From: Echinarachnius parma
Taxonomy: Eukaryota > Echinodermata > Echinoidea > Clypeasteroida > Echinarachniidae
DNA: 64,000 nucleotides
Direction: 5' to 3'
NCBI GenBank assembly: GCA_037951105.1
Contig: JBAMJV010010159.1
Location: forward strand, 27,893-91,892
Shown here: piece after piece, positions 2,595-53,660 of the stretch
How the letters are laid out: every line of letters begins with the position of its first letter
Position numbering within the stretch: the first letter of the stretch is position 1
Notes under the pieces: generated by a model
The model's database searches: none
Seen by the model: the letters and a program-made list of their open reading frames with translations, nothing else
Told to the model about the DNA's origin: nothing
Made by a program: the position numbers and the translations under genes

Positions 2595-4525
2595 GGGCAA
2601 TTCCACGACATATGGGACATAGATGCCAAAAATTCAAAATGATGTTTGGTTCAAATAACTCATATTTTTTAATAATACATGAGTTGAAGTTTAAGGAACA
2701 ATAATTTTTTTTTCAATGACGTCCATTTTTTTTCTCAAAATGGCCATCAAAGTATAAAAGTAGAAAATATGGTGACGGGAAAGATAAATTCACATACATT
2801 TTGCTATCTCTAAATCTACTAAACCATTACTTCAATTGATAAACTTTCACATGAACAGAGTTACCAGAATAACACTTTACCAAATGGTATGAACAAAATT
2901 GCTGGTTTGATTTTTGAATTTGACAAAAATCTTGATTAGCTCAGTTACCATAATGGATGTAACGTCAGTTACCAAAAACAAGGATTTTTTCAATTTATTC
3001 CACAAAGAAGTTGATATATGGGATGCTACTTGAGATTTGTAATCTTTGACCAACTCTCTTTCTATCAATACAAACAAAATTGGGATGCCTACATACCATT
3101 GGTAGAAATTGGCTCTTCAAAGTGTGTAACGTCAGTTACCATGTAACGTCAGTTACCATAATTTAACATCAATTACCATAATGTAACAACTAACATATGA
3201 TTTACCAATGGAACAATGATAATTGGATAGATTCATAAACCTTAAGGAGGCACTTGCTAAGTTGTTTAAGCCAGTTATTATCATGTAAATCAGTATGAAG
3301 TTCTTTCAAAAGACTAAACATTATGATGGAGGGGATGTAACGTCAGTTACCAAAATCATGGATTATAAAAATCTCATTTTAAGTTAAATTTTCATTTGTT
3401 TCTCTGTAAGTTTTATCTCCCAGTATGTGCAAATAGGGTGGAAAGCCCTTAATTTATCTGCTTTTGTTAATAAAGTGGAGTAAAAAAGGCAAAATCCTCT
3501 CTTTATTTCCGTGAAAAGGCAAAGGGACTTGCCCCTTAGATCCCCACACCCCATATCCATTCCAAATTATTGATAAATTACTGTTTTGAATCTTAAAAGT
3601 TAATATATTTAACATTAAACATGTGACTAGTATGGTATGATTCATGAGGAATCAACAAATTTGTTCTACAACCTAAACCTAATTTACATGTGTAACGTCA
3701 GTTACCACCCATAGGTAAAGTACATGTAAAACGTCAATTATCCCCATAGGTCCCGAGTTCCCATTGTTTGATCTTTTGCTAGGTTGATATCAGTATTTAA
3801 CATTTCACTAGTATGATATAATTCTTGATGCAGTGCAAAAACAGTGATAATATCAATTTCATGTAAACCCCATAGACAAAGCATTGTAACGTCAGTTACC
3901 GTAACGTCAGTTACCAGCATGCTCACAATAAACTTTCCAAAGAATTAAAAGAAAATGGACAAAGGTCTCCTTTCATTTGTGTATATGTTCTTGATGGACC
4001 AAGGTATTAATCCATACCCCAAAAATCATTCTAACAAGTTACGGAATTGAAATATTTCAAACTGATTCCAACACATGATTTTTCACGTGTTAAGTCTATG
4101 GGAAGTGTAACCGTAACGTCAGTTACGTAACGTCAGTTACCGACATGCCTTCAGTAAAGTTATCCTAGCATAAAGGGAGATGGTGCTAATTGTTCCATAT
4201 TTGGTACATCTGTTCCTGGTTACCTAGGGATGATGTCACATCAAACTCATCATTCTAGCAGGTCTGGGACATGAGATATTACACTTTGATTCAAGACCAT
4301 CATTTTGCATGTCTTTTTTGCGTAACGTCAGTTACCGACACATTTTTGCTCGCTGTTCGATTAAAAATTCAGTTTTGGTGAAAAAATTTATACTGATTTC
4401 TTCACTCTCATCAACTATATACATGTATCAAATAATAACCCCCAGGTATCTTTATTTACATAACTACAATGAAAACAAAGTTGTACAAATCCTACATTGT
4501 AACGTCAGTTACCGTGGAATTGCCC
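2595..4525. mobile_element. Element A: TIR element with palindromic box array
   Basis: The element is 1,931 bp. It begins GGGCAATTCCACG and ends in the complement; ATAT stands directly outside each end (2591-2594 and 4526-4529), consistent with a 4-bp target duplication. Inside are eleven exact copies of GTAACGTCAGTTAC, starting at 2959, 3126, 3143, 3337, 3692, 3886, 3901, 4113, 4127, 4322 and 4499, plus weaker versions near 2942, 3161 and 3726. The box is itself an inverted repeat (GTAAC...GTTAC). Box starts are mostly 165-195 bp apart or close doublets 14-17 bp apart. There is no long open frame, so the element looks non-autonomous. Superfamilies with 4-bp target duplications include Sola, Ginger and Academ; I cannot choose among them. 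Confidence 0.8.
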
Positions 4526-4753
4526 ATATGATGACACACGCAGTACCCCGGGGTACCGTTGTACCCCGGTTTCCCGCGTTGTGTAGCGCCATCTTGCATC
4601 CAACCGTACCGCAGCTATTGCGTTGTGCATGCAGTGCAGCGCGCGATTGTATGCACGCTACACCCACAGTACAGCCCTAAAAATTAAATAAATAATTAAA
4701 CAAAATGGCGGATTTTCGTCTGGTACCCTGGCGTACCGTTTATGTCATCATAT
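4526..4753. mobile_element. Small MITE with ATATGATGACA ends
   Basis: The sequence starts ATATGATGACA and ends with its near complement TGTCATCATAT. Just inside, GGTACC-containing segments (near 4553 and 4721) also face each other. The interior is GC-richer than its surroundings. It abuts the right end of element A, and its first four bases are also A's target duplication, so A may have inserted at the edge of this MITE. Confidence 0.55.
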
Positions 4754-5310
4754 ATATATTACACCACGATACCACCACTGTCAGATTATCTTACTCAATG
4801 TGATACTTTCCTTGCCACCATGTGGTACCGTTTTAAAGAATTGAATTTTGTTCGTTAAAAATGAATTCAATTTATTGAACTTCTTTGATATACTGTTCAG
4901 TAATATTGCTTTATTACAGGAACAGACAACATTTATAAGAATACAATTGCAGTCATATTGTACATATTCACAGAGCTTGATTAGAAGTCAGTTCCACATT
5001 CATCATTGCATTTTCCTTAAATAATAATATTAATAAAACTACATCAGCATGTATAATTAGTCAACATACACCAATTTTTAAGCCCTGTAAAAAGCAGAAA
5101 TAATATTTCTCTTGGTCACTCAGTACAATTCAAGCAGACTATAGTGTGCAAATTTCAACTCCCTGGGGAGCGAGCATACCACCAGCGTGTGGCCACAGAG
5201 GAGCATCAACCTTATTATGTAATCACTGCCCCACCCTACCTGGTACCCAGTACTCTTGGGTTTACAGAAACAAATATGGATAAGAGCGCCTTGCCAAGCG
5301 ACACAAACTA
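4754..5310. other. Gene-free stretch
   Basis: AT-rich sequence with no supported gene. Near 5155-5175 there is a CAACTCCCTGGGGAGC segment shared with the dispersed repeat at 18040-18230 and 18556-18755. Confidence 0.4.
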
Positions 5311-5317
5311 AGTCAAA

Positions 5318-5462
5318 ATTCCCATAGAAACCCATAGGACAATCCTATTGGTCTCTATATGGGTTCCATAGAAACCCATATTCCACTTTCCCTATGAAAC
5401 CAATAAAAACCATTTAATAGGCCTATGGGTTTCTATTGGTTTGGTTATATGGGAATTTCAAC
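5318..5462. mobile_element. Short foldback element (145 bp)
   Basis: The ends are AAATTCCCATA at left and the complement TATGGGAATTT at right. Inner segments such as GAAACCCATAGG face CCTATGGGTTTC. Several CCCATA/TATGGG blocks repeat inside, so the unit can fold over much of its length. It is non-coding. Confidence 0.6.
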
Positions 5463-5646
5463 CTGGGAAGGGCAGAGGTTGGGAATGTAACCCAAGAGCT
5501 TCACATTGAAAGCCAACAAACAGGAAGATATAAGATGATGAAAGGTTGAGACTTGAATCCACAACCTTCACATTTAGAAGAGGTACAGTAGGCCGCTCAA
5601 CAATAAGACGAAGACACTCCCACAAATATGATACAAGATGAGATTA

Positions 5647-5800
5647 ACCCATTGCTTACGGGAACCGGGTAGGCTGTGTACAAAGTCTAGGGGGATTTCG
5701 GAATCTCGAAGTGAACGGGTTAACATATTGCCTACGGGATCCTGGTGCGTCCTGTATTATCTCTACAGGAATTACAAAATCTAGTAGGGTACAGGTTACA
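5647..5800 (+). repeat. AACCCATTGCC family, two tandem copies
   Basis: Two 75-bp units lie head to tail: 5647-5722 (AACCCATTGCTTACGGGAAC start) and 5723-5797 (AACATATTGCCTACGGGATC start). Each ends near a GGGTTAAC or ACAGGTT segment. The same family is tandem again at 40223-40436. Confidence 0.65.
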
Positions 5801-6010
5801 GGTCTATGACTTAATAGAGGTGTCAGTTCAGTCACCTCTTGTCTACTTGAAGCACTTTGAAGGTAAGTTGATAAAAACAAGTAGATTGGTTAATAGAGAC
5901 AGGTGCGGGGCACACTGTGTGACATTAATACTTGTTTACCGATTGCAATGATGACCATTTAATGTTCAACATCCTCATCACACCTAGCCTCTTGACAAGG
6001 TCCCGTGTCT

Positions 6011-6309
6011 GAATGGAGCATGGAGCAGGTTTCAGTTTTTCAAATTTCCCTTTCGTTGAAAAGATGTTTACGATTGAAGTTTTCAGATTTTGTATTATCC
6101 ACTGGAAAGTTATAGCTGAGTACAAAAGTAAGTGCAATGAGTTAGCGAATATCACTTTGCAGGTTTGCTCATTACTTGGCCATATAATATCCATTTTCCA
6201 TGGAGTTTTCACACACCACTCAGTGGACAAATCATATCACAACAGTACACATTTTTATCAAACATTCATCACTTTTCGCACAGACCAACAAAGTTACTAG
6301 ATCCCTTTA
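6011..6309 (-). mobile_element. MITE family T1, reverse truncated copy
   Basis: Read on the minus strand this matches 684-1000: it starts at the TTAA-flanked AGGGATCTAGTAAC end (6283-6304) and carries the GTCCACTGAGTGGTGTGTG and GCAAAGTGATATTCGC segments. The opposite inverted end is missing, so the copy is truncated near 6011. Confidence 0.7.
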
Positions 6310-7137
6310 ATAAATCAAACAAACAAACAATTATTCATCTTCATGAACTTAATAAAAATCATAATTTAAGAATGAAGAAATACAATGCAGTTTCACTAAG
6401 TCATTACAAATATTTACTTCAATACCTACCATTAAATAGTATGGATATACCTTCATCATATTATGACATCTTTATGATTATGACTGACATAGTTTCGCCG
6501 AGTCATTTCGATGATTTATTTTTCATTAATGAGGATTAACTACGCACCATAATTATGTGCCATAAAAAATGTCATTACTAATATTTACTTGTCCTTAACG
6601 AGAAATAATTACTACACAGTTTAATTTCTTAATATAATATATGCTTTTGTCATTACGATCATAACCACTGTAGGGTTAAGTATGGAGCGGCAACATGAAA
6701 AGTGAACAAGTATAATTATCTGGTATGATTATGATTTTAGTTCCACTACATCGTAACAAACATCTACAAAAAGGATTTTGCAATAACTTAATAATACATA
6801 CCATCATCATGCGTCCTATGCCATCATTAGGATTATAAAACCGATGATGAGTGAATTAGGAGGAACAATTAGCAGCCCCTGGACAAATTTACCTACAAAT
6901 GTACGCCCGCCGTTTTAAAATGCAACAGCAGAACGGTAGGGATGCTCCAAAATCCATGCTATGCCTATATCTCCTGGGTAGGCTGTAGGTATACTGTAGC
7001 AATGTGTGGAGTGGATTTAACTCATGTGGTGCCAATGGTATACTGTACATAGCAATGTGGTTTTAACCCTTGTGTAGCCGACAGCACAGATTTGCGCCTA
7101 ACAGAACACACAATACCTATAGATAGAGAGCTACGGT
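6310..7137. other. Gene-free stretch
   Basis: AT-rich, no supported gene or recognised repeat. Positions 6360-6700 hold several TCATTA-like short motifs, too irregular to call a repeat. Confidence 0.4.
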
Positions 7138-7162
7138 AGACACACACACACACACACACATG
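7138..7162. repeat. (CA)n microsatellite
   Basis: An uninterrupted run of about eleven CA units. Confidence 0.9.
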
Positions 7163-8632
7163 TGAATTTCATTGTACAATACAAGAGCTCTCAAGCATGT
7201 GCATGGTAGATTCTTATACCTCGCTCGACTCAAGGTTACAATTTTACAAATTACACTATGCGCTGCCCTGGAAATGGAAACGCTCGCTCCCCGCGCTACC
7301 GCTGCTTTGACGATTAGCGCTAGGTGTGTATTCTGCCCTCCTTTAAGGGGCAGAAGGGCGCAAATGGCTGTATGACACATTTCTCAAACTGAGACTAACA
7401 ATTAGATATGTATTCTTTTATATATTGTAGTCATTATAGTTTAGTACCTAGCAAAATTTAAACCACAATTTGTCAATTTTTTTAAAAGAGAAATTAAAGT
7501 TACCGTATGGTAAAGATTTTATCAAATGACAATGTGACACATTCTCAAATTGAGTCTCAATATTACAATATGTGTTCTTACATTTTGTACTCATCAAACT
7601 ATATCTGCTATCAGAATTGTTTTTTGATTTTCCTCTATATGACTGTTTCGATAAAAACTATCAAATTTCGTGATATGTATTGGTTGTAATGGATATCAAA
7701 CAGCCCTAAATTTCATCGCTGCTGCCAATGTAACAGATGAGCACAGAATTCAATTCAACACTCGTTTACAGAAAATGTCAATGATGTCACTTGCTCCCTT
7801 TTACCATTGTTGGGTAGCATTTGTCTGATGAATTAGCAGCAAATGATTGCTTGCCATAATGATAAAAGGGGTGTGAACGTGAGGGAATTGCGTACAGTGG
7901 AATGATATCTCTTTCATGATGAAATGAAAGTAGCATTCTCTTCCCCACTAGCTCTGCAAAATGGAAAATAAAATTAAATATCAGTCTGTTTCCTTCTACA
8001 ACTTAAAATCAAATTAGGAGTTTATATATTATAGTATGCCATCTGGTAGGTAGGCATACAGTATATGCTATGCAGTAAAACATCACATTTATAAGCATAT
8101 ATTATTGTCAAGTGTTTTTTTTTTTTATCCAAGCTCATACCGTACTTAAATAATGTTGCAATTAAAAAAAAACGGTTCCAAGAAATGATCATAACAATTC
8201 ATATTGTACTTCAGTACTTGCACGTACAACACGTAGAGTTAATTTTCAGTTTCTTGGGGAATATGAAAAATAGGTCTCACTTTGAATTTAAATGACCCTA
8301 TAAAGCCTTCATCTTAGACCGACTGAAAGAAATCGATCTTAAAAATAAAACAGTAACAAAAGAAAATCCTGTTTTTTCATAAGTCCTTGTAAAAAAAACC
8401 TAACCATCGCAGTTTAAAACTCTGAACTTGCAGAAAACTAGGTGTCTTTATGCCATGGGCTACAATTTTCAGTGCCCATATCAATATTCAACGAATCCAC
8501 ATAATCATTTACCACTACCGATCAGTTGACTAGTGCATCTTTATTAAATTGAGTGTCATGAACCAGCTGATAATTCTAATAAATCCAATCAATATCATAA
8601 GAAATTAAGAATCCAAAGAATTTATTACCCCA
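7163..8632. other. Gene-free stretch
   Basis: No gene is supported. TGTGACACATTCTCAAA (7530-7550) echoes the ATGACACATTTCTCAAA stretch at 7370-7388, a possible diverged duplication of about 160 bp spacing. The rest is AT-rich with A and T runs near 8110 and 8165. Confidence 0.4.
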
Positions 8633-8633
8633 T

Positions 8634-8710
8634 CATAATAATAATAATTGTTGATTTTTATATAGCACTTTATCAACAAAGTCTCAAAGCGCTCTGAGCA
8701 TTATTACCTT
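8634..8710. repeat. TATAGCGC dispersed repeat, copy 1
   Basis: An AATAATAAT lead, then GATTTTTATATAGCACTTTATC and a CAAAGCGCT segment. Other copies lie at 18472-18560, 31165-31240 and 54170-54262 with the same order: AAT run, ATTTATATAGCGCCTAATAT, then GCGCTTTACAA. Confidence 0.65.
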
Positions 8711-8838
8711 GGCTTTTGCTGAGCTGCGAAGATGGGGCGCTCAAGCATTTCAAGGAATAAATTCGCACCTCTATTGAATTACGTGTCTAATTTATTTTCT
8801 TTCATATATTGTCAAGATCCATGGGTTTTTATATAAAG

Positions 8839-9050
8839 TACTGTAAACGTTGTTATTTTCGCGCGATTAATATTTCGCGCTGAGCGACACAAAAACAAAT
8901 TCGCGGGTTTTTAACTTCGCGGCCAAACAAGTGTTCATACGCATTGCAAATCGCGCATTTATATTCACAGGTTTTAATATTCGCGGACGCTGACTTCAGC
9001 GCGAAATCCGCGAAATTGAATGCACCGCGAACATTACCACGTTTACAGTA
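8839..9050. mobile_element. Foldback MITE with TACTGTAAACG ends
   Basis: The 212-bp element has inverted ends TACTGTAAACGT. The interior is full of short CG-rich words (TTCGCG, CGCGAA) in both orientations. This composition, unlike the AT-rich flanks, is typical of a recognised type of invertebrate foldback element. It has no coding capacity. Confidence 0.8.
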
Positions 9051-10352: not shown

Positions 10353-10574
10353 GGCCCGTATTCACAAAGGAGGTTTGTACAAACCCTGGTTCAAACCGCG
10401 GTTTACATCTATGGAATGCCAATTGTAAACTGATGGAGAGAGAATGTGTACCATCAACATTGTTAACAAGTAAGGAATTTACATTCTCTCTCCATCAGTT
10501 TACAATTGGCATTCCATAGATGTAAACCGCGGTTTGAACCAGGGTTTGTACAAACCTCCTTTGTGAATAAGGCC
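10353..10574. mobile_element. MITE with 94-bp near-perfect inverted arms
   Basis: The arms are 10353-10447 and 10481-10574 and differ by only about one or two bases (GGCCCGTATTCAC against the complement of GTGAATAAGGCC). A 33-bp loop separates them. ATT lies directly outside both ends, a possible 3-bp target duplication. The arm similarity implies a recent insertion or correction between arms. Transcribed, it would form a long double-stranded hairpin. Confidence 0.9.
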
Positions 10575-10737
10575 ATTTAGTCTGAGTAATTAATTATTTT
10601 GAATATAACTCCTGCAAATTCACAAAAATTCACAAATTGTTTGCATGCTTTCATAAAAGTCAGATAAGTCTTTAAAGAGGCCCCATAATCTTAATTTTCT
10701 GATAAATTTTAAAGAAAATATATATATAGAAGCCTTG

Positions 10738-12960: not shown

Positions 12961-12964
12961 TTAT

Positions 12965-25735: not shown

Positions 25736-25799
25736 AGCACATAGCCAAATACCATTCGTGACAACACGTCAACACTTACAATATGATTCTAACGATTCT

Positions 25800-28700
25800 G
25801 GGCAATTCCGTATGAGAGAAGGCAAAAACACCACATCTCAAAGCTGAGCAATCTACCCTAAATCAAACTGTTATCAATAAAGGAAAACTTGAATTTTAGG
25901 AAACTGAAAACCGTTTGTATATAGCTCTATTGGTTTTTCAAATATTTCTGCTTGAATTGAACAGAAATTTATGACCTTATTTCATAAATCAGCTTCATTT
26001 TTATGAAAATAAAGTGAATCTTTTAATTCAATGACTGTTTCTGCTCATTTTCTCATATTTTCCATATGATATTGTAACAATCACAAATTGTAAAGCATGG
26101 GCAGTAACTTCATTGCATATTTTTTTGAGAATTTTTAAAAATCTATGCACATTTGATCGTAATTCCGTTACGATAAAACGTTTTAAGTTTTTATCAATAT
26201 CTGATTACTTGTTCTTTGGTCATGTCATTGTGAATTCTCTTCCTTCACCATAGTCCTAAGAACTTCCAACATAATTTTCTGAAATAATGTCACTACTTTT
26301 TCCAAAAATGGCGTAACAGTATTAGTAATTCCGTTACGTAACGGAATTACACGCACATGGTTTGTAAGGTATTGAATGATATTGCTGAAATTTTTGTTTC
26401 TTTCTTGTTCTGAATGTAGAAATACCCTTTAAATAGCATGTAGCATAACTGTAGCCATGTACGTAGACAAAAGTCATTATACATGTACTGTACAATGTTA
26501 CTTTGTGACTCATTGCCTCTAATGCTTCAGATTGCATCAATGGTGATTTAACTAAATTGATACACGATAGATAATTTCTCTCTCCATGAACATAATAGAG
26601 ATGATAATGTTCTATGATACTTCTATCATTAAATTAGTTTCTAGCAAGACCCACTTGACTGAAATTATGAAGATGCAGCAGATTCATGTTTGTACTTTAG
26701 AAAGGGAAAAACGAAAACAATAACACAAATTTAAAAATATCCAGTAATTAGTATCACACTGGTTCTACATTTATTTTCTCACATTAATTTACATTGATGC
26801 ATTATAAGATATAAATCATACCTTCAACTTTCAAGGAGATTTAATATTAATAATTTTGTATACATGTAGATTTGATTATCATTGATCTGTTAAGGGCTCA
26901 TAACTCACCATTAATTATGTAAATTTGTATTAAACTGAAGCATATAAAATCAAACCTAAATACAGAATAGGCTTCAAGATATTCAAAACTATATACATAA
27001 TACAGGCTAAGATATGTTTTATTCATTATCATAAAGTCAGAATTCATTGAGTGTTCAGTGTGCTTCTGTATGCAGATCAAAGAAGATGTACAAAGTATTT
27101 GCATTTTCAAATGGGAATTCCTAAAGGTGTCTTTCATTTTTTGTAATTCGATATTTATATTTGATATGCCAACTTTTTGTATTTGGATCATACATGTTTA
27201 TATCCGATATCATGTATTTCATGGAATGAATGAAAACGCATTCCAAATTAATTTGAGAGTAAATTAAGATCACTTTAAGGATGAATTTTCAAAAGAATAA
27301 TTTCAGAATATAACAAGAGTTTATACAACAAATCTCGATTTTTTTGTAATTCCGTTACGCACACACATAAATTCAGGATTTGTTCTGGTCCTTATGTAAG
27401 AGTTTAACAATTATTGTTTAACAATGCATACAAAATCTTTACTATAGACTATAAGCAGAAAAATGTAACCAAGAAATTGCATTTTTATGGGTGGATTCAT
27501 GGGTGGATTTCACAGGCGTAATTCCGTTACAGTGACATTCATTTGTCTTAAGGTGATTTCAGAGGTTAAAACAGATCATTTCTGGAAAAAAGATGTACCA
27601 AATTCAAGTTTGTAACTTACATGATAAGTTTTTATTACCAATGCAGAATTTTTTGAGGTAGCTTTTGCAGAAAATCATTACAAAATTAGTGTTGAATAAA
27701 AGACCACTTTCCGTTATGATTGTATTTTGGTCTCCTGACGCTACAGTGTTATAGATTTGTACCTCTAGTACCCCTGCCAGTTATTAAAGTTGTAAAAACT
27801 GTGGAAGTGAAAGGAATTTTAAATATGATTAAGAAAACAGAGCTAAAAATCACTTATTTGTCATTCTGTAACAGTGGAATTGCCCATTCACAATGCATTT
27901 CCATTCACACCTTGATTTTCAATATTTATGAAGTTTACGAGGCTTTATAGCATTGAAAGTGGAATGATTTGACCCGTTTGTGATTTTAAATTGTTTAAAT
28001 GTTTCTTGATATTGATGATGTGCAGTTCTTTAGCATGTCACATAATGTAGGTACTTTTTTTTTTTTTTACTTTTGGTTTTTTCCACAATTTAACCATTTT
28101 TCTTGAAGTAAAGGAAAAATTATAAAATGTTGCTATTTTTTTCTTCAAATATGGTTATTATTGTCACATTATTGATTTTTGAAAAGTATTGAAGCTAAAA
28201 TGTGAATTCTTTGTTGTTCATGTACCGATTTTTGGAAAAGTTGATTTCACTGCTTAAGTTGTGTAATTCCGTTACACACTTTAGTGGACATAGTTTCTAC
28301 GATTTTTCTTTAATTTAATTGATGCAATCCTTTTTAATTCCTTGCCTACTAATATGAAGCTGAAAATAAACCAAAATAAAGCTGGATTTTAGCAATAGTT
28401 TTTTCAAATTTCACTCTTAATTGTATTTTGGCCATATTTTCATTCATTTAACACATGACAAGTTTAAATATTGCTTTACAGATGTATCAAATTATGGTTT
28501 ATATTCAAGTGCTAGATAGCCTTGATGTTTGCATTAGTATGTAAGAAAAGTTGAGTGCAAAATAATTGAGTTTACCTTGTAACTGTCAGAGATGTAATTC
28601 CGTTACAATTTTGTGTAATTCCGTTACAGTGCTCTTTTTTCAAAAAAGTGAATTTGTGAACTTATCATTGTGTCGATTATGCACCTAATTGTTCCAAAGT

Positions 28701-29017
28701 GAAGTTGACATTATCAAGATAGAAAAAATACATAAAATCAGTTTCAAAGTGTCTTATATTTCAGAGAAACTTAACGCAAACTTGTAGCAAAAAAAAAACT
28801 CCATTCTCCAGTAATTCCGTTACGGTCACACATATTGGTCTAGTGTGCAACAACACATGGAAGATATAAAATCGTTTCCCTATCATTTTGTAGCCTGGCT
28901 GCCCGTGCAACTTATTTAAGTATCAACATTTACTTAAGTCATGAGAATATTGCGCAGAGAATAAAATAATGAGCAAAATAGGTCTCTGAATGTAATTCCG
29001 TTATGGTGGAATTGCCC
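25800..29017. mobile_element. Element B: TIR element with GTAATTCCGTTAC boxes
   Basis: The 3,218-bp element begins GGGCAATTCC and ends in its complement; TTCT lies directly outside both ends. Exact GTAATTCCGTTAC boxes start at 26159, 26325, 27346, 27518, 28263, 28594, 28615 and 28811. An inverted box at 26338 joins the 26325 box into a perfect 26-bp palindrome, and a one-base variant lies at 28992. Degenerate boxes lie near 27706 and 27868. Box distances from both ends match those of element A within a few bases to about 12 bp. GTAACAGTGGAATTGCCC at 27868-27885 repeats the right-terminal arrangement internally. No transposase-like frame is present. Element C is a near-identical inverted copy. 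Confidence 0.85.
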
Positions 29018-29150
29018 TTCTATATATTATCCTTTATAGCAAGCCATCACAAACAACTTGTGGGTCACAAATGTGCCCTGCCCCAGACTTATGAGAATTT
29101 CAAAACTGTTACGTGCCAATTAACCCCTTCCATTCGGCATTCTCTGCGTA
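29018..29150. other. Sequence between element B and a hairpin
   Basis: No gene. The part TTAACCCCTTCCATTCGGCATTC (29120-29142) looks like the start of an AACCCATTGCC-family unit whose matching GGGTTAA end lies at about 29314, with the hairpin in between. Confidence 0.4.
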
Positions 29151-42772: not shown

Positions 42773-42775
<3 letters not shown>

Positions 42776-44448: not shown

Positions 44449-44734
44449 TTATGGTAAGAGAAGAATAAAATAGAGTTAGATTTTTTCAAATGCCCCTTTA
44501 GTATGACGATATCTATCATTGATAATCATTTAGCTCAAGAGCGTTAATGAACGGTCATAAACCTCATACAGTAATTTGTTGTAAAAAGCTGATGCAAATT
44601 TTCGCTTTTTTAACCAGGAAAGCAGTGTTCTTTTTCAATGAAACTTTCACACATCATTCAGACATATCTTACAATGATTTTGGTACAGGATTGAAGTCTC
44701 AAATGTCATTTTGGGCAATATTTGACACTTTACA
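44449..44734 (+). repeat. Duplicated 290-bp repeat, copy 2
   Basis: See the copy at 39928-40212. This copy is followed by unrelated sequence (GGTTTGGGCCGTATAGTC), so the duplication has a defined right border at TTTACA. Confidence 0.85.
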
Positions 44735-45289
44735 ACATACCTGTGTGGACTGATGCCTTTGGTTTGGGCCGTATAGTCCTGAGTATGAGGTATATTGTTC
44801 GGTGCGCGGCCATGTGGATGTGAGGTAGTGTCCTGCTATCGTGTCCAGAGAATTTGTCCGGCGGATTGCGGGGGCGGGGCTGGCACGTACTGCTTTGGGT
44901 TTTTCGACTGCAAGACAAAATAAAAGGAAACGGAAAAGACAAATGTATTATTAAAGGTGATCAACTATCAATTAAATAATTGTACAAAACAATTTTCTTG
45001 CTACCATTGTCAATCTTTGTTCACCATATATACAGTTTGGAGCCTCCAAACGTAATAAAAGTGTACAAAATACACCCAAAATAGAATGATTATCAAGTTT
45101 GAAAAGGATCATGCATTTGACCATGCCATAAAATTAAACAAATCTGTAAAGAAAATTTTGGATAAAGGTGCATTGATCGGGAATCAAGCATTTTCAAAAT
45201 GTTTCTTTACCTTTGATACTAATGAAATGAAAAGGGGCAAAGAATTTGGCTCAGGCGGAACACAAACCAAGAGAATTCCAGAATGCATG

Positions 45290-45908
45290 ACAAGCGCTGT
45301 ACCAACTGAGCTACAGAAGCACCCTAGTTGGTGGCTGATCCGGAAACCTCTGGATTGCTAGACCAGCGTTGTACCAACTGAGCTACAGAGCACCGTTGTT
45401 GGTGGCTGATCCGGAGACCTCTGGATTGCTAGACCAGCGCTGTACCAACTGAGCAACACAGCACCGTTGTTGGTGGCCCATCCCGAGACCTCTGGATTGC
45501 TAGACCAGCGCTCTACCAACTAAGCTACAGAGCACCCTAGTTGGTGGCTGATCCGGAGACCTCTGGATTGCTAGACCAGCGCTGTACCAACTGAGCTACA
45601 GAGCACCGTTGTTGGTGGCCCATCCCGAGACCTCTGGATTGATGGACCAGCGCTGTACCAACTGAGCTACAAGAGCACCCTTGTTGGTGACTCATCCCGA
45701 GACCTCTGGATTTCTAGACCAGCACTCTACCAACTGAGCTACAGAGCACACTAGTTGGTGGCTGATCCGGAGACCTCTGGATTTCTAGACCAGCACTCTA
45801 CCAACTGAGCTACAGAGCACACTAGTTGGTGGCTGATCCTGAGACCTCTGGATTGGGTAGACCAGCTCTTTACCAACTGAGCTAGAGAGCACCCTAGTTG
45901 GTGGTTCA
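45290..45908 (-). repeat. Tandem array of about nine tRNA-like 71-72-bp units
   Basis: ACCAACTGAGC recurs at 45301, 45373, 45444, 45515, 45586, 45657, 45729, 45800 and 45872, a spacing of 71 or 72. On the minus strand each unit reads TAGCTCAGTTGGTA (a good pol III A box and D arm), a CTGGTCTAGCAATCCAG anticodon arm with AGC, and AGGTCTC. The T arm and 3' acceptor strand are replaced by GGATGGGCCACCAAC or GGATCAGCCACCAAC, so the B box is broken. The anticodon arm matches the 1908-1979 tRNA-like gene. The first unit is more diverged. No unit makes a complete cloverleaf. Minus-strand open frames across it read QLVECWS-like strings, the usual translation of such repeats. Confidence 0.85.
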
Positions 45909-46655
45909 TCCTATTGATCCCTTTAATGTTCAACAACTCAGACCTATGCAACTGGGAACATACCCACAAGAAGAATACCAACCTATGAGAATACCAATTT
46001 TATTTTATTATAAAGTAATGGTTGTCATACTAGTATATCAAAACTACTTTGTATTAAACATATATGATTTGTCATGCTTTACACAGCTATTAAGTAAAGT
46101 TCTTACCTGCTTTATACATTGATGCTGGACAGTTCTCTTATCATGTTGCCTAGTGCAAGAGTACATTACCTATTAGAATCTACTATCAAATTGAAACCGG
46201 GGTGGCCAAAGTTACCTCGTCAAATACATTATAGACCAGACATGTGATAATTTTTCAGATCAAACAGTATTTGACTCTTTCCTAACATTCAGTTTTACAG
46301 TCTGGTAGGTTTTTATAACACCAGTTTAATTATTTGAAACCAAGATAACAATTTCTGGAATTCTTTCAACCTACGCAATCCAAGTCTAAAGGCAGGCTGC
46401 ACCAGCTACTTTCAGTTTTGGTTCAATCAAAAAGGAATATCCAAATACTTTAGTCAAATAATAACATGTATTTGACTATTATGTACACAATAAATGTTAG
46501 GAGGATTTGAAGGAATGAAGAGGAATTTCTGTCTAAAATGAGTACGCTAAATTTACACAAATTTTGGAGTTGCTGGAGCATACTACTAGGCATGCAACAT
46601 ATTCAGGATTATTTTCTCCATTTTTTTTTGGGGGGGGGGGGGAGGGGGGGAGTGT
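45909..46655. other. Gene-free stretch
   Basis: No supported gene. A G-rich tract lies at 46630-46652. Confidence 0.4.
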
Positions 46656-46658
46656 GAC

Positions 46659-47225
46659 TTAAGGGCAATGAAACCCAAGCAAACTGTTGCTTTCATCTAC
46701 TTTAAGAGATTATGAGGAATAATCTCTGAACGTGTGAGCATAATCGGGCAAGAAACAAGAAAACTACGGCTCTTTGAAGATGTCCATTTATTCCTAAGGG
46801 GAACTCAAATTGGCAACAAACTCTGATAAGTTTGTGGACTACTCCCCATATGTTTTGTACACAAATTTCCCTATTTTTCATTTTTCTTCTTAGTCACACT
46901 TTTTCTTTCCCCAGACTCATGATATGTTGTGTATAAATGTATTCTACAAAACATATGTTGAACTCAAACGATAGGTAAACATATATTTTGAGAAACTTAA
47001 CAAAAACAATTTGAAATTTTGTGTACTAAACGTATAGGGAGTAGTCCACAACTCTTCCAGAGTGCGTTGCCCATTTGAGTCCCTCTTAGAAATAAATGGC
47101 TATTTTAAAAGAGCCATAGTTTTCTTATTTCTTGACCGACTGTGCTCAAATTTTCAGAAATGATTCATCCTTTTCAGTGTCTTATACCGCATACAATGAT
47201 TTGTCTGGATTTCATTGTCCTTTAA
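46659..47225. mobile_element. Long-arm MITE with TTAA ends (family T3)
   Basis: TTAA at 46659-46662 and 47222-47225. Inverted ends GGGCAATGAAACCCA and the complement of AGGACAATGAAATCCA continue into arms of nearly 200 bp. The paired words include AAACAAGAAAACTACGGCTC with its counterpart GAGCCATAGTTTTC, and TTGTGGACTACTCCC with GGGAGTAGTCCACAA. Arms match about 80% by eye, so it is older than the 10.3-kb MITE. Confidence 0.8.
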
Positions 47226-47696
47226 TGTTGGTTGGATTGTCTTGAAAACCCTATTATGTATTTTTTACCATCATGAGGAAAATGGTACTGTGTGCCCTGT
47301 TTGTAAAAGTGCTCAGACTTTTTGCTTTACTCATGTTGCATACTCTTATGCAAATTATATAAATATAATATTTACAGGAAACTACAGACAAAAAGCAGGA
47401 GGCATACATGTATGTCTTGAAACATTTTGATTTATTACATCCAATGCTATGTCATGTAGACTTAAATGATAATTTTTTTAAACGATTATTCTTTGATTCT
47501 TATCGTAGACTACATAATCTCTATAAAAAACACCGGAATACTTTCAGTTTCGTTGTAACAATAGAAAAGAAACTTTTTAAAATAATACTTAAAGGCAATA
47601 ATATGCATGTGGAAAATATCTGAACAATGTTGAGTACTTGATCGCACAATCAAAATACTTCAGTCCCATTATGCAGGTAAATCTGTTCACCAGGAA
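47226..47696. other. Gene-free stretch
   Basis: Two overlapping plus-strand open frames of 71 codons are seen but neither shows a known domain; I do not call a gene. Confidence 0.4.
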
Positions 47697-48193
47697 TTAA
47701 AGGCCAATACCAGTTTTGGGAAACGTCCCACTCTCAAAAAATGAAATGGACGCTCTTATTACCAATCATGTGAAAAAATATGTTTTTACTAATACGGGAT
47801 GATACAAATTTTGCCTGGAAACCGCCTACTAATTGATATATTTGGTAAATCATGTAGTCATCTGTTGCGGATAGATATCTCGCTGATGGTCGTATGTTGA
47901 TATACAGCTTCGTGCACTGCGTGTTAATCCTATGGAAAATGCGCACATGGTAATGCGCACGAGCGAATCGCTCGAACGAGCGTATAGAATGTGTCCAGCA
48001 TAGACGGGCCAAGCTGACGGTGAATTTAGGCTCAATGTCAGCGGCTTTCATAAACGTTTTAACTGATATTTCTGCATTTGACGATAGTAAGGTTCTGATT
48101 TTTCCACACACGCTCTTTTTATGTTATTTCAATAATACTAATCAATTAGTTTGACTAATAAAGTTATTTCCCACTACTGGCATTTCCCTTTAA
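47697..48193. mobile_element. MITE with TTAA target duplication (family T4)
   Basis: TTAA at 47697-47700 and 48190-48193 flanks inverted ends AGGCCAATACCAGTTTTGGG and the complement of AGGGAAATGCCAGTAGTGGG. The 489-bp interior has an open frame of 125 codons on the minus strand with no recognised domain; it spans the element and is probably chance. Confidence 0.75.
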
Positions 48194-48284
48194 TTATGCT
48201 TCTTTTTTTTAATGAGAAAAGCCGAGATTCACACAGTATTTTCCATAGTCAATATCCCAAGTATTTTTGGGTCCAGTCCTGAAT

Positions 48285-48350
48285 GGGTTATAGTTGCAAA
48301 TATTAAGTACTGTTAAAAATAGCAAAATCAATCCGTCCTGAACAGGTTAA
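48285..48350. repeat. Fragments of the TTAACCCGTT foldback family
   Basis: GTCCAGTCCTGAATGGGTTA and CCGTCCTGAACAGGTTAATA match the right end of the outer element at 35128-35466 and show the uninterrupted target sequence of the nested MITE there. Confidence 0.65.
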
Positions 48351-50904
48351 TATGATATGGCGAAAGCATTCTTTGCAATATTCAAATAATGATGCTCCCT
48401 TTTCACAAAGAAAACAAGAAAAATTAAGAAATTTATAGGTGAATCACAGAGGAATAACGTATAGATCAATGGCTTTGGGGAAACGCCCAGTGCTTAAGGA
48501 TAACAAGTTCTGAAAGATGGATTTTAACTACATTGTAAATTCCATTCTAGAAATTAACTTCTTCTCCCCCCCCCCCCCCTTCTGATGTCCTGGCCAGGCA
48601 ACTTATATAGAGACTAAATACAAATGTTGCAATGTTGCGTATTTGATACAAGAAAAATGAAAGATTTAGATGTGAATCACGGAGCCAACGCATGAGGAAT
48701 ATAATGTAGATTGCTTTGAGGCTACACCCAGTCCATAGATAATAAGATATTCAGTTTTAAACATTAAAACTACTTTGTAAATCGCATTCCAAAAATAACT
48801 TCTATTTCCCCTTGATGGTTCCGGTCAAGTAAATAAAATATATCCTTTCACAACTTTTGCTTATTTGATAACAGAACTGGGTTACCCAAAACAAAGAAAC
48901 ATGTTTTTATTTGCCCAATTGGGCAAGTAAAATATAACATATGGGCAATTCCACCATAACGGAATTACATTCAGAGACGTTTTTTGCTCATTATTTCATT
49001 CCCTGCGCAATATTCTCATGACTTAAGTAAATTTTGATACTTATATAAGTTGCACGGGTAACCAGGCTACAACATGATAGGGAAATGGTTTTATATCTTC
49101 CATGTGTTGTTGCACACTAGACCAATATGTGTGACCGTAACGGAATTACCGGAGAATGGAGTTTTTTTTTTGCTACAAGTTTGCGTTGAGTTTCTCTGAA
49201 ATATAAGACACTTTGAAACTGATTTTATGTATTTTTTCTATCTTGATAATGTCAACTTCATTTTGGAACAAGTACGTGCATAAACAACACAATGATAAGT
49301 TCACAAATTCACTTTTTTGAAAAAAGACCACTGTAACGGAATTACACAAATTTGTAACGGAATTACATCTCTGAAAGTTACAAGGAAAACTCAATTATTT
49401 TGCACTCAACTTTTCTTACATGCTAATGCAAACATCAAGACTATCTAGCACTTGAATATAAACCATAATTTGACATATCTGTAAAGCAATTTTTGAACTT
49501 GTTATGTGTAAAATAAATGAAAATATGGCCAAAATACAAACAAGAATGAAATTTGAAAAAAATATTGCTAAACTCCAGCTTTATTTCGGTTTATTTTCAG
49601 CTTCATATTAGTAGGCAAGAAATTAAAAAGGATTGCATCAATTAAATGAAAGAAAAATCCTAGAAACTATGTCCACGAAAGTGTGTAACGGAATTACACA
49701 ACTTAAGCAGTGGGATCAACTTTTCCACAAATCGGTACATGAACAACAAAAAATTCACATTTTAGCTTCAATACTTTTCAAAAATCAATAATTTGACAAT
49801 AATAACCATATTTGAAGTAAAAAATAGCAACATTTTTTAATTTTTCCTTTACTTCAAGAAAAATGATTAAATTGTGAAAAAACCCAAGTAAAAAAAAAAA
49901 AAAAAGTACCTACATTATGTGACATGCTAAATAACTGCACATCATCAATATCAAGATACATTTAAACAATTTAAAATCACAAACAGGTAAAATAATTCAA
50001 CTTTCAATGCTATAAAGCCTCGTAAACTTCCTGAATATTGGAAATCTGTGTGAATGGAAATGCATTGTGAATGGGCAATTCCACTGTTACAGAATGACAT
50101 ATAAGTGATTTTTAGCTCTGTTTTCTTAATCATATTTAAAATTCCTTTCACTTACACAGTTTTTAAAACTTTAATAACTGGCAGGGGTACTAGAGGTACA
50201 AATCTATAACACTGTAGCGTCAGGAGACCAAAATACAATCATAACGGAAAGGGGTCTTTTATTCAACACTAACTTTGTAATGATTTTCTGCAAAAGCTAC
50301 CACAAAAAAATTCTTCATTGGTAATAAAAACTTATCATTCAAGTTACAAACTTGAATTTGGTACATCTTTTTTCCAGAAATGATCTATTTTAGCCTCTGA
50401 AATTACCTTAAGACAAACGAATGTCACTGTAACGGAATTACGCCTGTGAAATCCACCCATGAATCCACCCATGAAAATGCAATTTCTTGGTTACATTTTT
50501 CTGCGTACAGTCTATAGTAAAGAATTTGTATGCATTGTTAATTTGTATGCATTGTTAAACTCTTACATAAGGACCAGAACAAATCCTGAATTTATGTGTG
50601 TGCGTAACAGAATTACAAACAAATCGAGATTTGTTATATAAACTCTTGTTATATTCTAAAATTATTCTTTAAAAAAATTCATCCTAAAGTGATCTTAATT
50701 TACTCTCAAATCAATTTAGAATGCGTTTTCATTCATTTCATGAAATACATGTACGGATATAAACATGTATGATCCAAATACAACCAGAACGTCAATGACG
50801 TAGCGCTCATCCGCCATCTCGCAACATCAAATATCGCAAATTTCATGTGGTACACTTTTCAACTGGTCAAAAAATAAAAATTTGATGCCCTGGAAGGGAA
50901 ATGG

Positions 50905-51105
50905 GAAAAAATAAAAAAAAATAAAAAAATAAATTTAAAAAATCAAAATCAAAATAAAAATAAATAAAATAAAAAACAAAAACAAACAAAACAAACAAAC
51001 AAACAAAAAATAAAATAAAATAAAAAAAAATAAAAATAAAAATAGAAAAATAAATAAAAATTAAATTAAAAAAAATTAAAAAAATAAAAAAATAAAAAAT
51101 TTACC
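50905..51105. repeat. A-rich low-complexity block
   Basis: Over 90% A and T, made of AAATAA, AAAACAAA and AAAAAT words with no fixed phase. Confidence 0.85.
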
Positions 51106-52175
51106 ATAATGAATGGAGAAAAATTTCAAAATTCTGTGTAGCAGTTTAGTGTACCAAAGTTAGCTCTACCAGATAAAGCAAACCAAATCAAAATCGGTCG
51201 AGAAATGAAGGAGAAGAAGCATTTTTTGTGATTTCGAATAATTTGCATAAATTACCATAGATAATGAATTTCATGAATCTGTATAGAAGTTTGAAATCCC
51301 CCTCTTAGCCCTATCTTATGAAACCTAGCCCTATTAGATAAACCAAACAGAATGAAAATCGGTCGAGAAATGAAGGAGAAGAAGCATTTTTTGTGATTTC
51401 TGGAATAAATTTGCATAAATTACCATAATTAATTAATGGAGAAAAATTTCAAAATTCTGTGTAGAAGTTTAGTGTACCAAAGTTAGCTCTACCAGATAAA
51501 GCAAACCAAATCAAAATCGGTCGAGAAATGAAGGAGAAGAAGCATTTTTTGTGATTTTTGGAATAAATTTGCATAAATTACCATAATTAATTAATGGAGA
51601 AAAATTTCAAAATTCTGTGTAGAAGTTTAGTGTACCAAAGTTAGCTCTACCAGATAAAGAAACCAAATCAAAATCGGTCGAGAAATGAAGGAGAAGAAGC
51701 ATTTTTTGTGATTTTTGGAATAAATTTGCATAAATTACCATAATTAATTAATGGAGAAAAATTTCAAAATTCTGTGTAGAAGTTTAGTGTACCAAAGTTA
51801 GCTCTACCAGATAAAGCAAACCAAATCAAAATCGGTCGAGAAATGAAGGAGAAGAAGCATTTTTTGTGATTTTTGGAATAAATTTGCATAAATTACCATA
51901 ATTAATTAATGGAGAAAAATTTCAAAATTCTGTGTAGAAGTTTAGTGTACCAAAGTTAGCTCTACCAGATAAAGCAAACCAAATCAAAATCGGTCAAGAA
52001 ATGAAGGAGAAGAAGCATTTTTTGTGATTTCGAATAAATTTGCATAAATTAGCATATATAATGAATTTCACGATTCTGTGTAGAAGTTTTAAATCCCCCT
52101 CCTAGCCCTATCTTATGAAACAATCAGAATCAAAATCGGTTGAAAAATAACGAAGAAGAAGCATTTTGAAAATTG
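51100..52175. repeat. 158-bp tandem array, about seven units
   Basis: GTACCAAAGTTAGCTCTACC starts at 51151, 51474, 51632, 51789 and 51947, giving a 157-158 bp period among the last four. A diverged unit lies between 51290 and 51420 and another after 52070, both with CCCTATCTTATGAAAC instead. Each unit carries AATCGGTCGAGAAATGAAGG and GAAGAAGCATTTTTTG. The four central units are nearly identical, the outer ones diverged, as expected from unequal exchange. Confidence 0.9.
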
Positions 52176-52176
52176 T

Positions 52177-52255
52177 GGACGGACGGACGGACGGACGGAC
52201 GGAAGGACGGACGGACGGAAGGACGGACGGAAGGACGGACGGACGGACGCCGGAC
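52177..52255. repeat. (GGAC)n microsatellite
   Basis: About 19 GGAC units with three GGAA variants, ending at GCCGGACGC. Confidence 0.9.
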
Positions 52256-53660
52256 GCAACGCCATGGCATAAGCTCATCGGGCCCTTCGGGCCGGATGAG
52301 CTAAAAAGTTGGCATATATAAAATATAAAAATCGAATTGCAAAAAATGAAAGACACCTTTAGGAATTCCCATTTGAAAATGCAAATACTTTGTACATCTT
52401 CTTTGATCTGCATACATAAGCACACTGAACACTCAATGAATTCTGACTTTATGATAATGAATAAAAACATATCTTAGCCTGTATTATGTATAGTTTTGAA
52501 TATCTTCAAGCCTATTCTGTATTTATGTTTGATTTTATATGCTTCAGTTTAATACAAATTTACATAATTAATGGTGAGTTATGAGCCCTTAACTGATCAA
52601 TGATATTCAAATCTACATACAAAATTATTAATATTAAATCTCCTTGAAAGTTGAAGGTATGATTTATATCTTAAAATACATAAATGTAAATTAATGTGAG
52701 AAAATAAATGTAGAACCAGTGTCATACTAATTACTGGATATTTTTAAATTTTTGTTATTGTTTTTGTTTTTCCCTTTCTAAAGTACAAACATGAATCTGC
52801 TGCATCTTCATAATTTCAGTCAAGTGGGTCTTGCTAGACACTAATTTAATGATAGAACATTATCATCTCTATTATGTTCATGGAGAAATTTGAGAAATTA
52901 TTTATCGTGTATCAATTTAGTTAAATCACCATTGATGCAATTTATGAAGCATGTGAGGTAATGAGTCACATAAAGTAACATTGTACAGTATAATGACTTA
53001 TTGTCTACATGGCTACAGTTCATGCTATTTAAAGGGTATTTCTACATTCAGAACAAGAAAAAATGTTATTTTCAGCAATATCATTCAATACCTTACAAAC
53101 CATGTGCATGTAATTCCGTTACGTAACGGAATTACTAATACTGTTACGCCATTTTTGGAAAAAGTAGTGACATTATTTCAGAAAATTATGTTGGAAGTTC
53201 TTAGGACTATGGTGAAGGAAGAGAATTCACAATGACATGACTAAAGAACAAGTAATAAGATATTGAGAAAAACTTAAAACGTTTTATCGTAACGGAATTA
53301 CAATCAAATGTGCATAGATTTTTTTTAAATCTCAAAAAAATATGCAATGAAGTTACTGCCCATGCTTTACAATTTGTGATTGTTACAACATCGTATGGAA
53401 AATATGAGAAAATGAGCAGAAACAGTCATTGAATTAAAAGATTCACTTTATTTTCACAAAATGAAGCTGATTTATGAAAAAAAGGTCATAAATTTCTGTT
53501 CAATTCAAGCAGAAATATTTGAAAAACCAATTGAGCTATATACAAACGGTTTTCAGTTTCCTAAAATTCAAGTTTTCCTCTATTGATAACAGTTTGATTT
53601 AGGGAAGATTGCTCAACTTTGAGATGTGGTGTTTTTGCCTTCTCTCATACGGAATTGCCC

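Follow-up and report, generated by a model that had tools for sequence, protein, structure and literature searches.

Fixed-distance box layout with family-specific box sequences at the ends of DNA transposons in Echinarachnius parma

The nearest precedent for the elements described here is the Arabidopsis VANDAL/VANC system (PMC5735166, PMC10398659). According to the data on binding given in PMC5735166, VANC21 binds YAGTATTAY, VANC6 targets carry the motifs AGTTGTCC/AGTTGTAC, and each motif is enriched in the non-coding regions of its own VANDAL families, with related proteins having quite different targets. For rigid placement of sites relative to the TIR, a precedent is provided by Hermes (PMC10368747).

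The analysed window comprised 64,000 nt of E. parma DNA (GCA_037951105.1, contig JBAMJV010010159.1, 27,893-91,892, forward strand), and the genome-wide follow-up was performed in the source genome (1.2 Gb). Three non-autonomous DNA transposons, A, B and C, span 2595..53660 of the window, each with GGGCAATTCC at both ends as terminal inverted repeats and with exact 4-bp duplications (TSD). The features of element A are:

2595..4525, +, element A (family A), non-autonomous DNA transposon, 1931 bp, GGGCAATTCC / GGAATTGCCC ends, TSD ATAT
2591..2594, unstranded, left TSD, ATAT
4526..4529, unstranded, right TSD, ATAT
2959..2972, +, box left 1, 364 from left end
3126..3139, +, box left 2a, 531 from left end
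3143..3156, +, box left 2b, 548 from left end
3337..3350, +, internal box
3692..3705, +, internal box
3886..3899, +, internal doublet, first box
3901..3914, +, internal doublet, second box
4113..4126, +, box right 3b, 399 from right end
4127..4140, +, box right 3a, 385 from right end
4322..4335, +, box right 2, 190 from right end
4499..4512, +, box right 1, 13 from right end

The corresponding features of element B are:

25800..29017, +, element B (family B), 3218 bp, transposon ends, TSD TTCT
25796..25799, unstranded, left TSD, TTCT
29018..29021, unstranded, right TSD, TTCT
26159..26171, +, box left 1, 359 from left end
26325..26337, +, box left 2a, 525 from left end
26338..26350, -, box left 2b, inverted, 538 from left end
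27346..27358, +, internal box
27518..27530, +, internal box
27860..27885, +, internal decayed right end: degenerate box GTCATTCTGTAAC and 13 nt ending GGAATTGCCC at 27876-27885; also in C, at 50073-50082
28263..28275, +, internal box, 742 from right end
28594..28606, +, box right 3b, 411 from right end
28615..28627, +, box right 3a, 390 from right end
28811..28823, +, box right 2, 194 from right end
28992..29004, +, box right 1, GTAATTCCGTTAT, 13 from right end

Those of element C are:

48943..53660, -, element C, second copy of family B, 4718 bp, TSD ATAT
50783..52302, -, insert of ~1.5 kb (limits approximate) with a 158-bp tandem array (51107-52056)
53110..53135, unstranded, left box pair, inverted
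53289..53301, -, left box 1
48956..48968, -, right box 1, 13 from right end
49137..49149, -, right box 2, 194 from right end
49333..49366, -, right doublet, 390/411 from right end

An earlier interpretation of this DNA, made from the letters alone (the sequence-only reading), had proposed that A and B share a box layout while using different boxes. Its coordinates and box offsets were correct on recomputation, and the box is, as claimed, uniform in A (11 exact GTAACGTCAGTTAC) and nearly so in B (9 exact GTAATTCCGTTAC and the terminal GTAATTCCGTTAT, which is identical in 11 aligned B copies). Degenerate boxes with 3-4 mismatches are additionally present in both elements, and the left box pair of B is inverted, unlike the direct pair of A. 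A blastn comparison of A with B gave no similarity beyond the termini at E < 0.2, and the matches that it listed span 12-28 bp. As Tandem Repeats Finder picked up nothing but box doublets in A and no doublets in B, an array of simple tandem units does not account for the boxes. Element C, which had been counted as a third case, does carry the same box set but is not independent, as it is a 94% identical copy of B with the 1.5-kb insert.

When the B box groups were placed at random against A (200,000 trials), at least 4 matches within 6 bp were obtained in a fraction of 2e-5, and in 6.5e-5 when 8 bp was allowed. Inside single elements the boxes showed weak periodicity, with P 0.013 for A and P 0.22 for B. 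Taken alone, the layout match between A and B is suggestive, and the case rests on the genome-wide data.

A search of the genome for the termini confirmed the observation and showed it to be larger than is visible from the window: there are 11,907 exact GGGCAATTCC ends, compared to 564 for the reversed-pattern control. The 4-bp duplications were exact in 32 of 37 two-ended elements; they vary in sequence (ATAT, TTCT, AGTA, CTCA and others), with the AWWT pattern in 11 of the 32. At the right end 14 end types were read, and offsets were taken from one representative per family. One layout is common to 11 families, which between them use 10 box sequences. Counted from the right end, their boxes lie at ~13, ~192 and ~390/405 bases, and 8 of the 11 also have boxes at ~360 and ~525/545 from the left end; in F, J and K no left set was found. 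The right spacings are 178.5 (sd 3.4) and 194.0 (sd 4.4) on average in the 11 families, while in the 8 families left box 1 lies at 360.3 (sd 2.6) and the left spacing is 163 (sd 5.0). The spacings of ~163, ~179 and ~194 bp are nucleosome-sized.

The positions are not random, since windows derived from A and B, covering ~10% of the end regions, contain 32 of the 35 near-end boxes of families D, E, H, I, F and J. Across families the near-end positions agree to within ~10-20 bases. Departures from a strict layout are also seen: the offsets of family H are shifted by ~10-20 bp, and in a second D copy the right doublet lies 10 bp closer to the end (381/401). Internal boxes have no conserved positions. 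Three of the 14 right-end types do not show the layout, namely L159 (C29) and L165 (C48), with the terminal box alone, and L169 (C32:17.8 kb), with decayed boxes in an element of ~440 bp.

The boxes are abundant and pure. Exact counts in the genome were 1276 for the A box (11 for its reversed pattern), 6800 for the B/D box (19) and 8935 for the E box (44), and a comparison of 36 elements with 10 box types, in the sample read, gave no exact off-type match, so that exact box types are not mixed inside an element. Neither random positions, mixed sets nor simple tandem units were thus seen in the sample read, and the earlier interpretation is supported, with caveats, among them that GTAAC half sites facing each other are not general, the E box GTCCTTCCGTTAC being no palindrome. 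Divergence among D copies was 0.0017 in boxes and 0.016 elsewhere; in A and B, conservation of boxes among copies is weak, as random windows were equally low in 4.6% (A) and 9% (B) of cases. Most families use a different box word, apparently changed at all positions together.

The putative switch is seen most directly in G1 and G2, which are 87.5% identical; for G1 a single copy was read over its whole length. Across seven boxes, two particular box bases account for 13 differences at their 14 sites, the differences by box position being 0 0 0 0 0 0 7 6 0 0 0 1 1. Compared to 210 differences at 1715 positions outside the boxes, the two-base excess has P 2.5e-11, and the remaining box positions (2 of 77 differing) have P 0.006. 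Among 100 doublets listed of 855, 57 were pure G1, 30 pure G2, 6 of a pure third type and 7 one-step mixtures; none combined G1 with G2 (control 0). F and P show another pattern: their leftmost 380 bp, ending where the first box begins, are 90.8% identical, and no blastn match was found past that point. The best reading is that box sets change along two routes, through base changes made in parallel (G1/G2) and through the swapping of a whole box-bearing arm (F/P). The sequence-only reading had proposed a set-wide switch in one lineage: the coordinated difference stands, while switching occurred more than once and is not limited to one lineage.

A, B, D, J and the insert of L135 were scanned in six frames against Pfam; nothing rose above the cut-off, and these scans revealed neither an autonomous element nor a box-reading protein. 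The THAP domain of the one 15.4-kb element, C32, belongs to a nested Kolobok-like element with a TTAA duplication. With a TSD of 4 bp, the elements do not fit hAT transposons (8-bp duplications) or MULE/VANDAL (8-11 bp), although the VANDAL-type trait of family-private motif sets is present; the GGGCAATTCC termini do not match the CAC termini of CACTA/Chapaev (EnSpm). Kolobok is rejected by its TTAA duplication, even though its termini begin with two purines, as does the GG found here, and its description does not extend to box arrays in the sections of PMC9587614 consulted. KolobokP, whose solo repeats have 3-5 bp duplications and whose termini are purine-purine, is compatible with 4 bp and GG (PMC9587614); neither its transposase nor its long terminal direct repeats turned up here.

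The ends, duplications, layout, purity of the boxes, coordinated difference and exchange of arms are observed, whereas we infer the protein that reads the boxes, its part in transposition, the direction and cause of the switch and the link to nucleosomes. At a probability of about 0.64, they are distance-fixed sites of a putative transposon-encoded protein whose specificity switches. All families would form one large clade of cut-and-paste transposons with GGGCAATTCC termini and a 4-bp duplication, and the boxes would be bound by a trans-acting protein, most likely encoded by unseen autonomous partners. This protein would have to sit at fixed distances (right 13, ~192, ~390 and ~405; left ~360, ~525 and ~545), while the GGGCAATTCC end would be cut by the transposase proper. 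Given the nucleosome-sized spacings, the simplest mechanism would be a large asymmetric end complex (transpososome) built on box groups about one nucleosome apart. As protein specificity changed, families would diverge; the elements mobilised best would be those whose entire box set matches, so the set would change as one.

It is unlikely, by comparison, that the boxes act in VANC-like anti-silencing, i.e. recruit a transposon-encoded protein that lifts silencing of matching copies instead of assembling a cutting complex, with specificity and motifs co-evolving. The family-private sets follow the same logic as VANC21/VANC6, and boxes occur in the interior as well; however, VANC motifs are often in tandem repeats gained or lost between copies, as described in PMC5735166, while near-end positions here agree across families to within ~10-20 bases, and the box 13 nt from the right terminus in all eleven families points to end recognition. 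Common descent alone, with an inherited end architecture, decay of all but the boxes and box differences arising by arm recombination, is less probable again. When the left ends of A, E, F, G1, H, J, K and P are compared, 23 of the 28 pairs of families resemble each other (shuffle z >= 2.4), some interior similarity persists in E, G and J, and arm exchange is seen in F/P, but this leaves unexplained why boxes and distances resist the decay that erased most other sequence, and the base-by-base G1/G2 difference. It is compatible with, and partly contained in, the reading as switching protein sites.

Binding of a host factor (zinc-finger repressor, pioneer factor or nucleosome-phasing protein), with families using or having escaped different host proteins, is improbable. 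The nucleosome-scale spacing is consistent with it, and a 13-14 bp box would suit a zinc-finger array; yet escape from a repressor would favour box loss over re-creation of a uniform set at the same places, enrichment and purity of the boxes argue for a positive requirement, and it seems less likely that ten versions arose by adaptation to existing host activators at equal distances. DNA-level homogenisation (gene conversion, template switching, tandem duplication), equalising and replacing boxes as a set without selection, is disfavoured as highly improbable: A and E (1634-1720 versus 2238-2324) do hold diverged internal duplications and boxes are nearly uniform within G1 and within G2, but the flanks of the seven G1 boxes can be aligned with their G2 orthologues as far as the edge of each box (1-7 differences per 28-40 bp), so tracts of ~13-15 bp would be needed at seven places in both orientations, and the conserved distances would stay unexplained.

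There is about an even chance that the boxes form a mobile-element "address code", in which fixed nucleosome-scale multi-site ends are kept and the word is repeatedly rewritten at all sites, giving at least 10 mutually exclusive sets in one genome. Transposons would then speciate by changing their key, under pressure to evade parasitic non-autonomous copies or host repressors. It has long been puzzling how a DNA-binding protein and its many sites can change jointly, given that every intermediate state ought to fail. In the present genome there are thousands of copies of the sites, families that have diverged to various degrees exist side by side, and in the closest pair read it is the same two bases that differ in each box. 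If a protein reads the boxes, they would provide a natural dense record of specificity evolution, with a path such as GC -> GT -> CT (G1, GT type, G2) readable from thousands of sites, and the conserved distances would be a directly testable blueprint for the end complex.

The ends of Tn7 and Mu carry several transposase sites per end, asymmetric between left and right, but are bacterial and more closely spaced than here. In Hermes (hAT), multiple short subterminal repeats are bound by transposase domains and left and right ends differ; the repeats lie tens of bp from the end, compared to 190-400 bp here, and the account in PMC10368747, as far as used, describes no whole-set change. The Sleeping Beauty IR/DR has inner and outer transposase sites at each end, all four required, with ordered HMGB1-aided assembly, but it belongs to Tc1/mariner, with a TA duplication and two sites per end (PMC7827188). 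Sola2 has 4-bp AT-rich duplications (AWWT), of the length found here but with a pattern that only 11 of the 32 exact duplications follow, and its TIRs are short, measuring 12-13 or 21 bp; box arrays are not part of the description in the portion of PMC3627910 drawn on. No Sola transposase was seen in the elements studied. The sequence-only reading had known of no family behaving in this way, and for family-specific motif sets VANDAL/VANC is a precedent: in both, short family-private motifs lie in non-coding element parts, those of VANDAL being recognised by proteins of altered specificity, and one motif type (T-type) was built up in a single VANDAL subfamily (PMC5735166, PMC10398659). VANDALs are plant elements with 8-9 bp motifs, often in copy-variable tandem repeats, for which the same reports, in the parts consulted, describe no rigid end distance, whereas in the E. 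parma elements the boxes measure 13-14 bp, keep fixed positions near the ends and go with a 4-bp TSD. If the proposed reading is true, they would be an analogue of VANDAL/VANC with far stricter geometry.

Three non-autonomous DNA transposons lie in the window:

2595-4525, element A, duplication ATAT
25800-29017, element B, duplication TTCT
48943-53660, minus strand, element C, duplication ATAT; a 94% copy of B

Unlike B, element C carries an insertion of 1.5 kb that includes a 158-bp tandem array. The ends that the sequence-only reading had given to A and B are correct, exact 4-bp duplications flank both, and the boxes (motifs of 13-14 bp at set distances from the element ends) lie where it had placed them. 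Its claim that the two elements are dissimilar outside their termini agrees with blastn, which returned only matches of 12-28 bp (E 0.2 or worse). The left segments showed weak global similarity (z 2.1 and 2.7), and ungapped identity between the left boxes was 0.353, compared to 0.284 in shuffles (P 0.03), with chance level elsewhere. A six-frame Pfam scan of A and B gave no family above cut-off. The box set of A comprises 11 exact copies of GTAACGTCAGTTAC, and that of B nine exact copies of GTAATTCCGTTAC and GTAATTCCGTTAT at the terminal place; degenerate boxes were also found in both. When the box groups of B were placed randomly, the four positions shared with A within 6 bp were reproduced in a fraction of 2e-5 of 200,000 trials.

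A decayed right end is present inside both window copies of family B (27860-27885 and 50073-50098) and, with at most one mismatch, in 8 of 9 fetched copies. Boxes 355 and 527 bp inward of it mirror the left layout, and family B therefore looks composite. The window also contains a 71-bp tRNA-like unit in tandem (45289-45911, 8.7 copies; Rfam tRNA 30.9 bits, minus strand) and, separate from this array, a tRNA-Ala gene at 1907-1980.

Genome-wide counts were made on the 1.2 Gb source assembly, with the reversed pattern as control. Exact boxes of the B/D type occurred 6800 times (control 19), of the A type 1276 times (11) and of the E type, GTCCTTCCGTTAC, 8935 times (44). Ends of the form GGGCAATTCC numbered 8961 where the 35th place is A, C or T (control 478) and 2946 where it is G (86). 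In viral contigs, the 26-bp B palindrome had no match, while the A box matched at least 120 stretches, with one match each in the 80 listed, which was taken as chance.

Elements of the clade have the form GGGCAATTCC...GGAATTGCCC, flanked by 4-bp target site duplications. Families were sampled among the first 100 matches listed per search, hence from low-numbered contigs, and read from 14 + 20 + 5 + 2 + 5 + 3 fetched stretches. The duplications match exactly in 32 of 37 two-ended elements, the exceptions being L135, L146 (both fetched stretches) and the single copies of H, I and J. The layout was present in eleven of the families read, with ten box sequences.

Box sequences and distances by family (left, bases preceding the box from the left end; right, bases between the box and the right end; for H, a 13-nt box is assumed around the common 10-mer)
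A: left 364/531/548; right 13/190/385/399
B: left 359/525/538; right 13/194/390/411
D: GTAATTCCGTTAC, same as B; left 359/514/530/547; right 13/191/391/411, second copy 13/191/381/401
E: GTCCTTCCGTTAC; left 359/523; right 13/192/389/403
F: GTAACGCGAGTTAC; right 13/190/379/394/409
G1: GTCACGGCGTTAC; left 360/526/546; right 13/193/390/404
G2: GTCACGCTGTTAC; left 359/525/545; right 13/193/390/404
H: GTACGTCCGA plus three; left 365/519/541/555; right 13/182/370/384/406
I: GTCCCGTCTGTCAC; left 357/523/542/562; right 13/194/384/407
J: GTCCCGGTGTTAY; right 13/193/391/405
K: GTAACGTTACTAAC; right 13/195/382/397

With one representative per family, spacing from the first to the second box was 178.5 (sd 3.4) at the right end and 163.0 (sd 5.0) at the left, and from the second to the third right box 194.0 (sd 4.4). 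No left box set was found in F, J or K. That box positions are non-random, as had been proposed, was borne out by windows set at the A and B positions + 10-13 bp and drawn up after the offsets of the other families were known. In the outer 700 bp of D, E, H, I, F and J, ~10% of which the windows cover, they caught 32 of 35 boxes, the terminal box excluded. F is only 797 bp long, so that its boxes were counted from either end, and J was scored on one side. Against random placement, P for single families ranged from 0.02 (F) to less than 1 in 20,000 (D). G1, G2 and K, read afterwards and outside this count, also fit the layout. Since B/D, E/G/J and F/P retain some residual similarity, the families form about seven groups that cannot be aligned to each other (A, B/D, E/G/J, F/P, H, I and K).

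The table omits two further families, O and P, known from a left end only (601 bases each, GTAATGTCCGTGAC in both), with no exact partner end among the matches listed; they had been considered as candidates for long elements. The left boxes of O fit the left layout, shifted by a poly-C run, and those of P (372 and 396) fit a short element viewed from the opposite end, like F. Also omitted are three end types without the layout: L159 and L165, with the terminal box alone at the right end, and L169, an element of ~440 bp with decayed boxes 2-3 mismatches from GTAATGTCCGTGAC. The remaining omissions (L136, L137, L138 and L147-L154) are A-type ends that are truncated or inside larger repeats. In L148-L154, a lone A-type right end has the identical outer flank AAGT... 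in 7/7 fetched loci, which indicates its capture inside a larger repeated sequence. L136 and L147 carry an A-type left end and A-type boxes within larger repeated sequence; both are flanked by TTGT, and neither stretch contained a right end.

Box types were not mixed within elements: ten types searched in 36 elements of the 11 families gave zero exact off-type matches, after removal of a single E element that had inserted into a B copy and with the C32 contig copy of G2 included along with its nested element. H has four exact matches to the 13-mer searched for, its remaining boxes sharing the 10-mer only. Elements had been fetched for having a given kind of box or end, not selected against other kinds. 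Among copies, the minority-base rate in boxes and in the rest was 0.036 vs 0.055 for A (9 copies; the box rate raised by misaligned columns at the A doublet), 0.018 vs 0.031 for B (11 copies) and 0.0017 vs 0.016 for D (5 copies); random windows were as low in 4.6%, 9% and 0.2% of cases, respectively. B and C differ at 1 of 130 box bases, where about 6 differences would be expected (P 0.014 to 0.03).

The switch of a whole box set, postulated from A and B, is directly visible between G1 (L162, 2010 bp) and G2 (L163, 1814 bp), whose 1806 aligned bases show 87.5% identity. Over seven paired boxes, the differences by position are 0 0 0 0 0 0 7 6 0 0 0 1 1, GTCACG-GC-GTTAC in G1 corresponding to GTCACG-CT-GTTAC in G2 and the inverted box likewise; the exceptions are one G1 box with GT and the G1 terminal box, which ends in GTTTG. 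Elsewhere the two elements differ at 210 of 1715 bases. Relative to this background, differences are in excess at the two core positions (13/14, P 2.5e-11) and too few at the other box positions (2/77, P 0.006). The seven boxes belong to a single element and would not be independent if a mechanism copies them. Conversion of whole regions fails to explain the change, because each box has flanks that align to those of the corresponding box, with 1 to 7 differences in 28-40 bases.

The doublet GTCACGSYGTTACNGTCACGSYGTTAC occurs 855 times genome-wide (control 0). Among 100 listed, tallied by eye and with some overlapping as triplets, 57 were GC/GC, 30 CT/CT, 6 GT/GT and seven mixtures whose halves are one transition apart: six of GC and GT, one of CC and CT. 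G1 and G2 were not combined in any of them. The GT/GT doublets suggest a third box set, possibly a step between G1 and G2. They also occur in inverted pairs ~820-840 bp apart (G000:C204:81879-82724 and C709:127081-127948), which may represent symmetric elements with a right-type end on either side. The interiors of L162 and L163 (about 800-1500) contain repeated AGGTCAAAGGTCA words, similar to nuclear-receptor direct-repeat sites.

Sets also seem to be replaced in a second way. Starting at the left end, F and P share ~380 bp at 90.8% identity, a stretch box-free until its last few bases; beyond it blastn found no match within the 601 bp of P, and the box types differ. The box-bearing arm seems in this case to have been swapped as a block. 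Left-end bases 13-60 are alike (shuffle z >= 2.4) in 23 of 28 pairs of A, E, F, G1, H, J, K and P; B and D are similar to one another and to few of the rest, and similarity is weak for I and O. By the same measure an interior stretch scored high only in B/D, E/G/J and F/P pairs and G1/G2, and right ends have the last ten bases in common and little else. A single ancestor is thus probable for most families, the boxes and their distances having outlasted nearly all other sequence.

No autonomous copy was identified via three routes, and no transposase was seen in the elements examined. L135 (G000:C399:93000-102000), a 6.3 kb A element, was rejected: it contains an inserted foldback element, whose arms measure 1.3 kb and which carries short protein-like ORFs. 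The 5.46 kb J element had no Pfam match (bases 100-5000 of L155 scanned). A 15.4 kb G2 element at C32 contains a THAP domain (PF05485, E 2.1e-7), not counted towards an autonomous G2 copy because it is housed in 13.65 kb that has separate short termini (about AGTAGAATTCCGTTGA / AGGAGAATTCTGTTGA) and lies at a TTAA repeat, junctions being placed by inspection. This segment, about half of it Pfam-scanned on one strand, was taken for a nested Kolobok-like element. It sits between the left boxes of the G2 element (L160+L161, G000:C32:48850-64380) and has further ORFs on the opposite strand.

We consider the boxes to be distance-fixed sites of a transposon-encoded protein of switching specificity, with a probability of about 0.64, put lower because three of the end types lack the layout. 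Box periodicity within single elements is weak evidence for nucleosome phasing and was retained as a hint only. Anti-silencing of the kind modelled for the Arabidopsis VANC proteins (PMC5735166, consulted in part) would better account for the internal boxes, and it too predicts that the transposons encode a DNA-binding protein whose specificity switches. It is less favoured than transpososome assembly on multiple exactly placed boxes, mainly since the boxes close to the ends keep a set distance from the termini, one of them lying directly at the end. Hermes and Sleeping Beauty demonstrate that several sites at exact places can be necessary (PMC10368747 and PMC7827188).

In excerpts of the open-licence literature, including PMC2872659, PMC3627910 and PMC4455052, no description of this clade was recognised; of the end and box strings, only 10-base end strings matched in the 30 papers listed of 126, which by title are unrelated. 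The 4-bp AT-rich duplications are similar to those of Sola2 (PMC3627910), but AWWT occurs here in 11/32; the duplication length is compatible with KolobokP (PMC9587614) as well. Family-private motif sets are already known in VANDAL/VANC and rigid subterminal sites in hAT elements. In the open-licence papers searched, neither was seen together with near-end distances of 190-400 bp that are conserved in ten box types.
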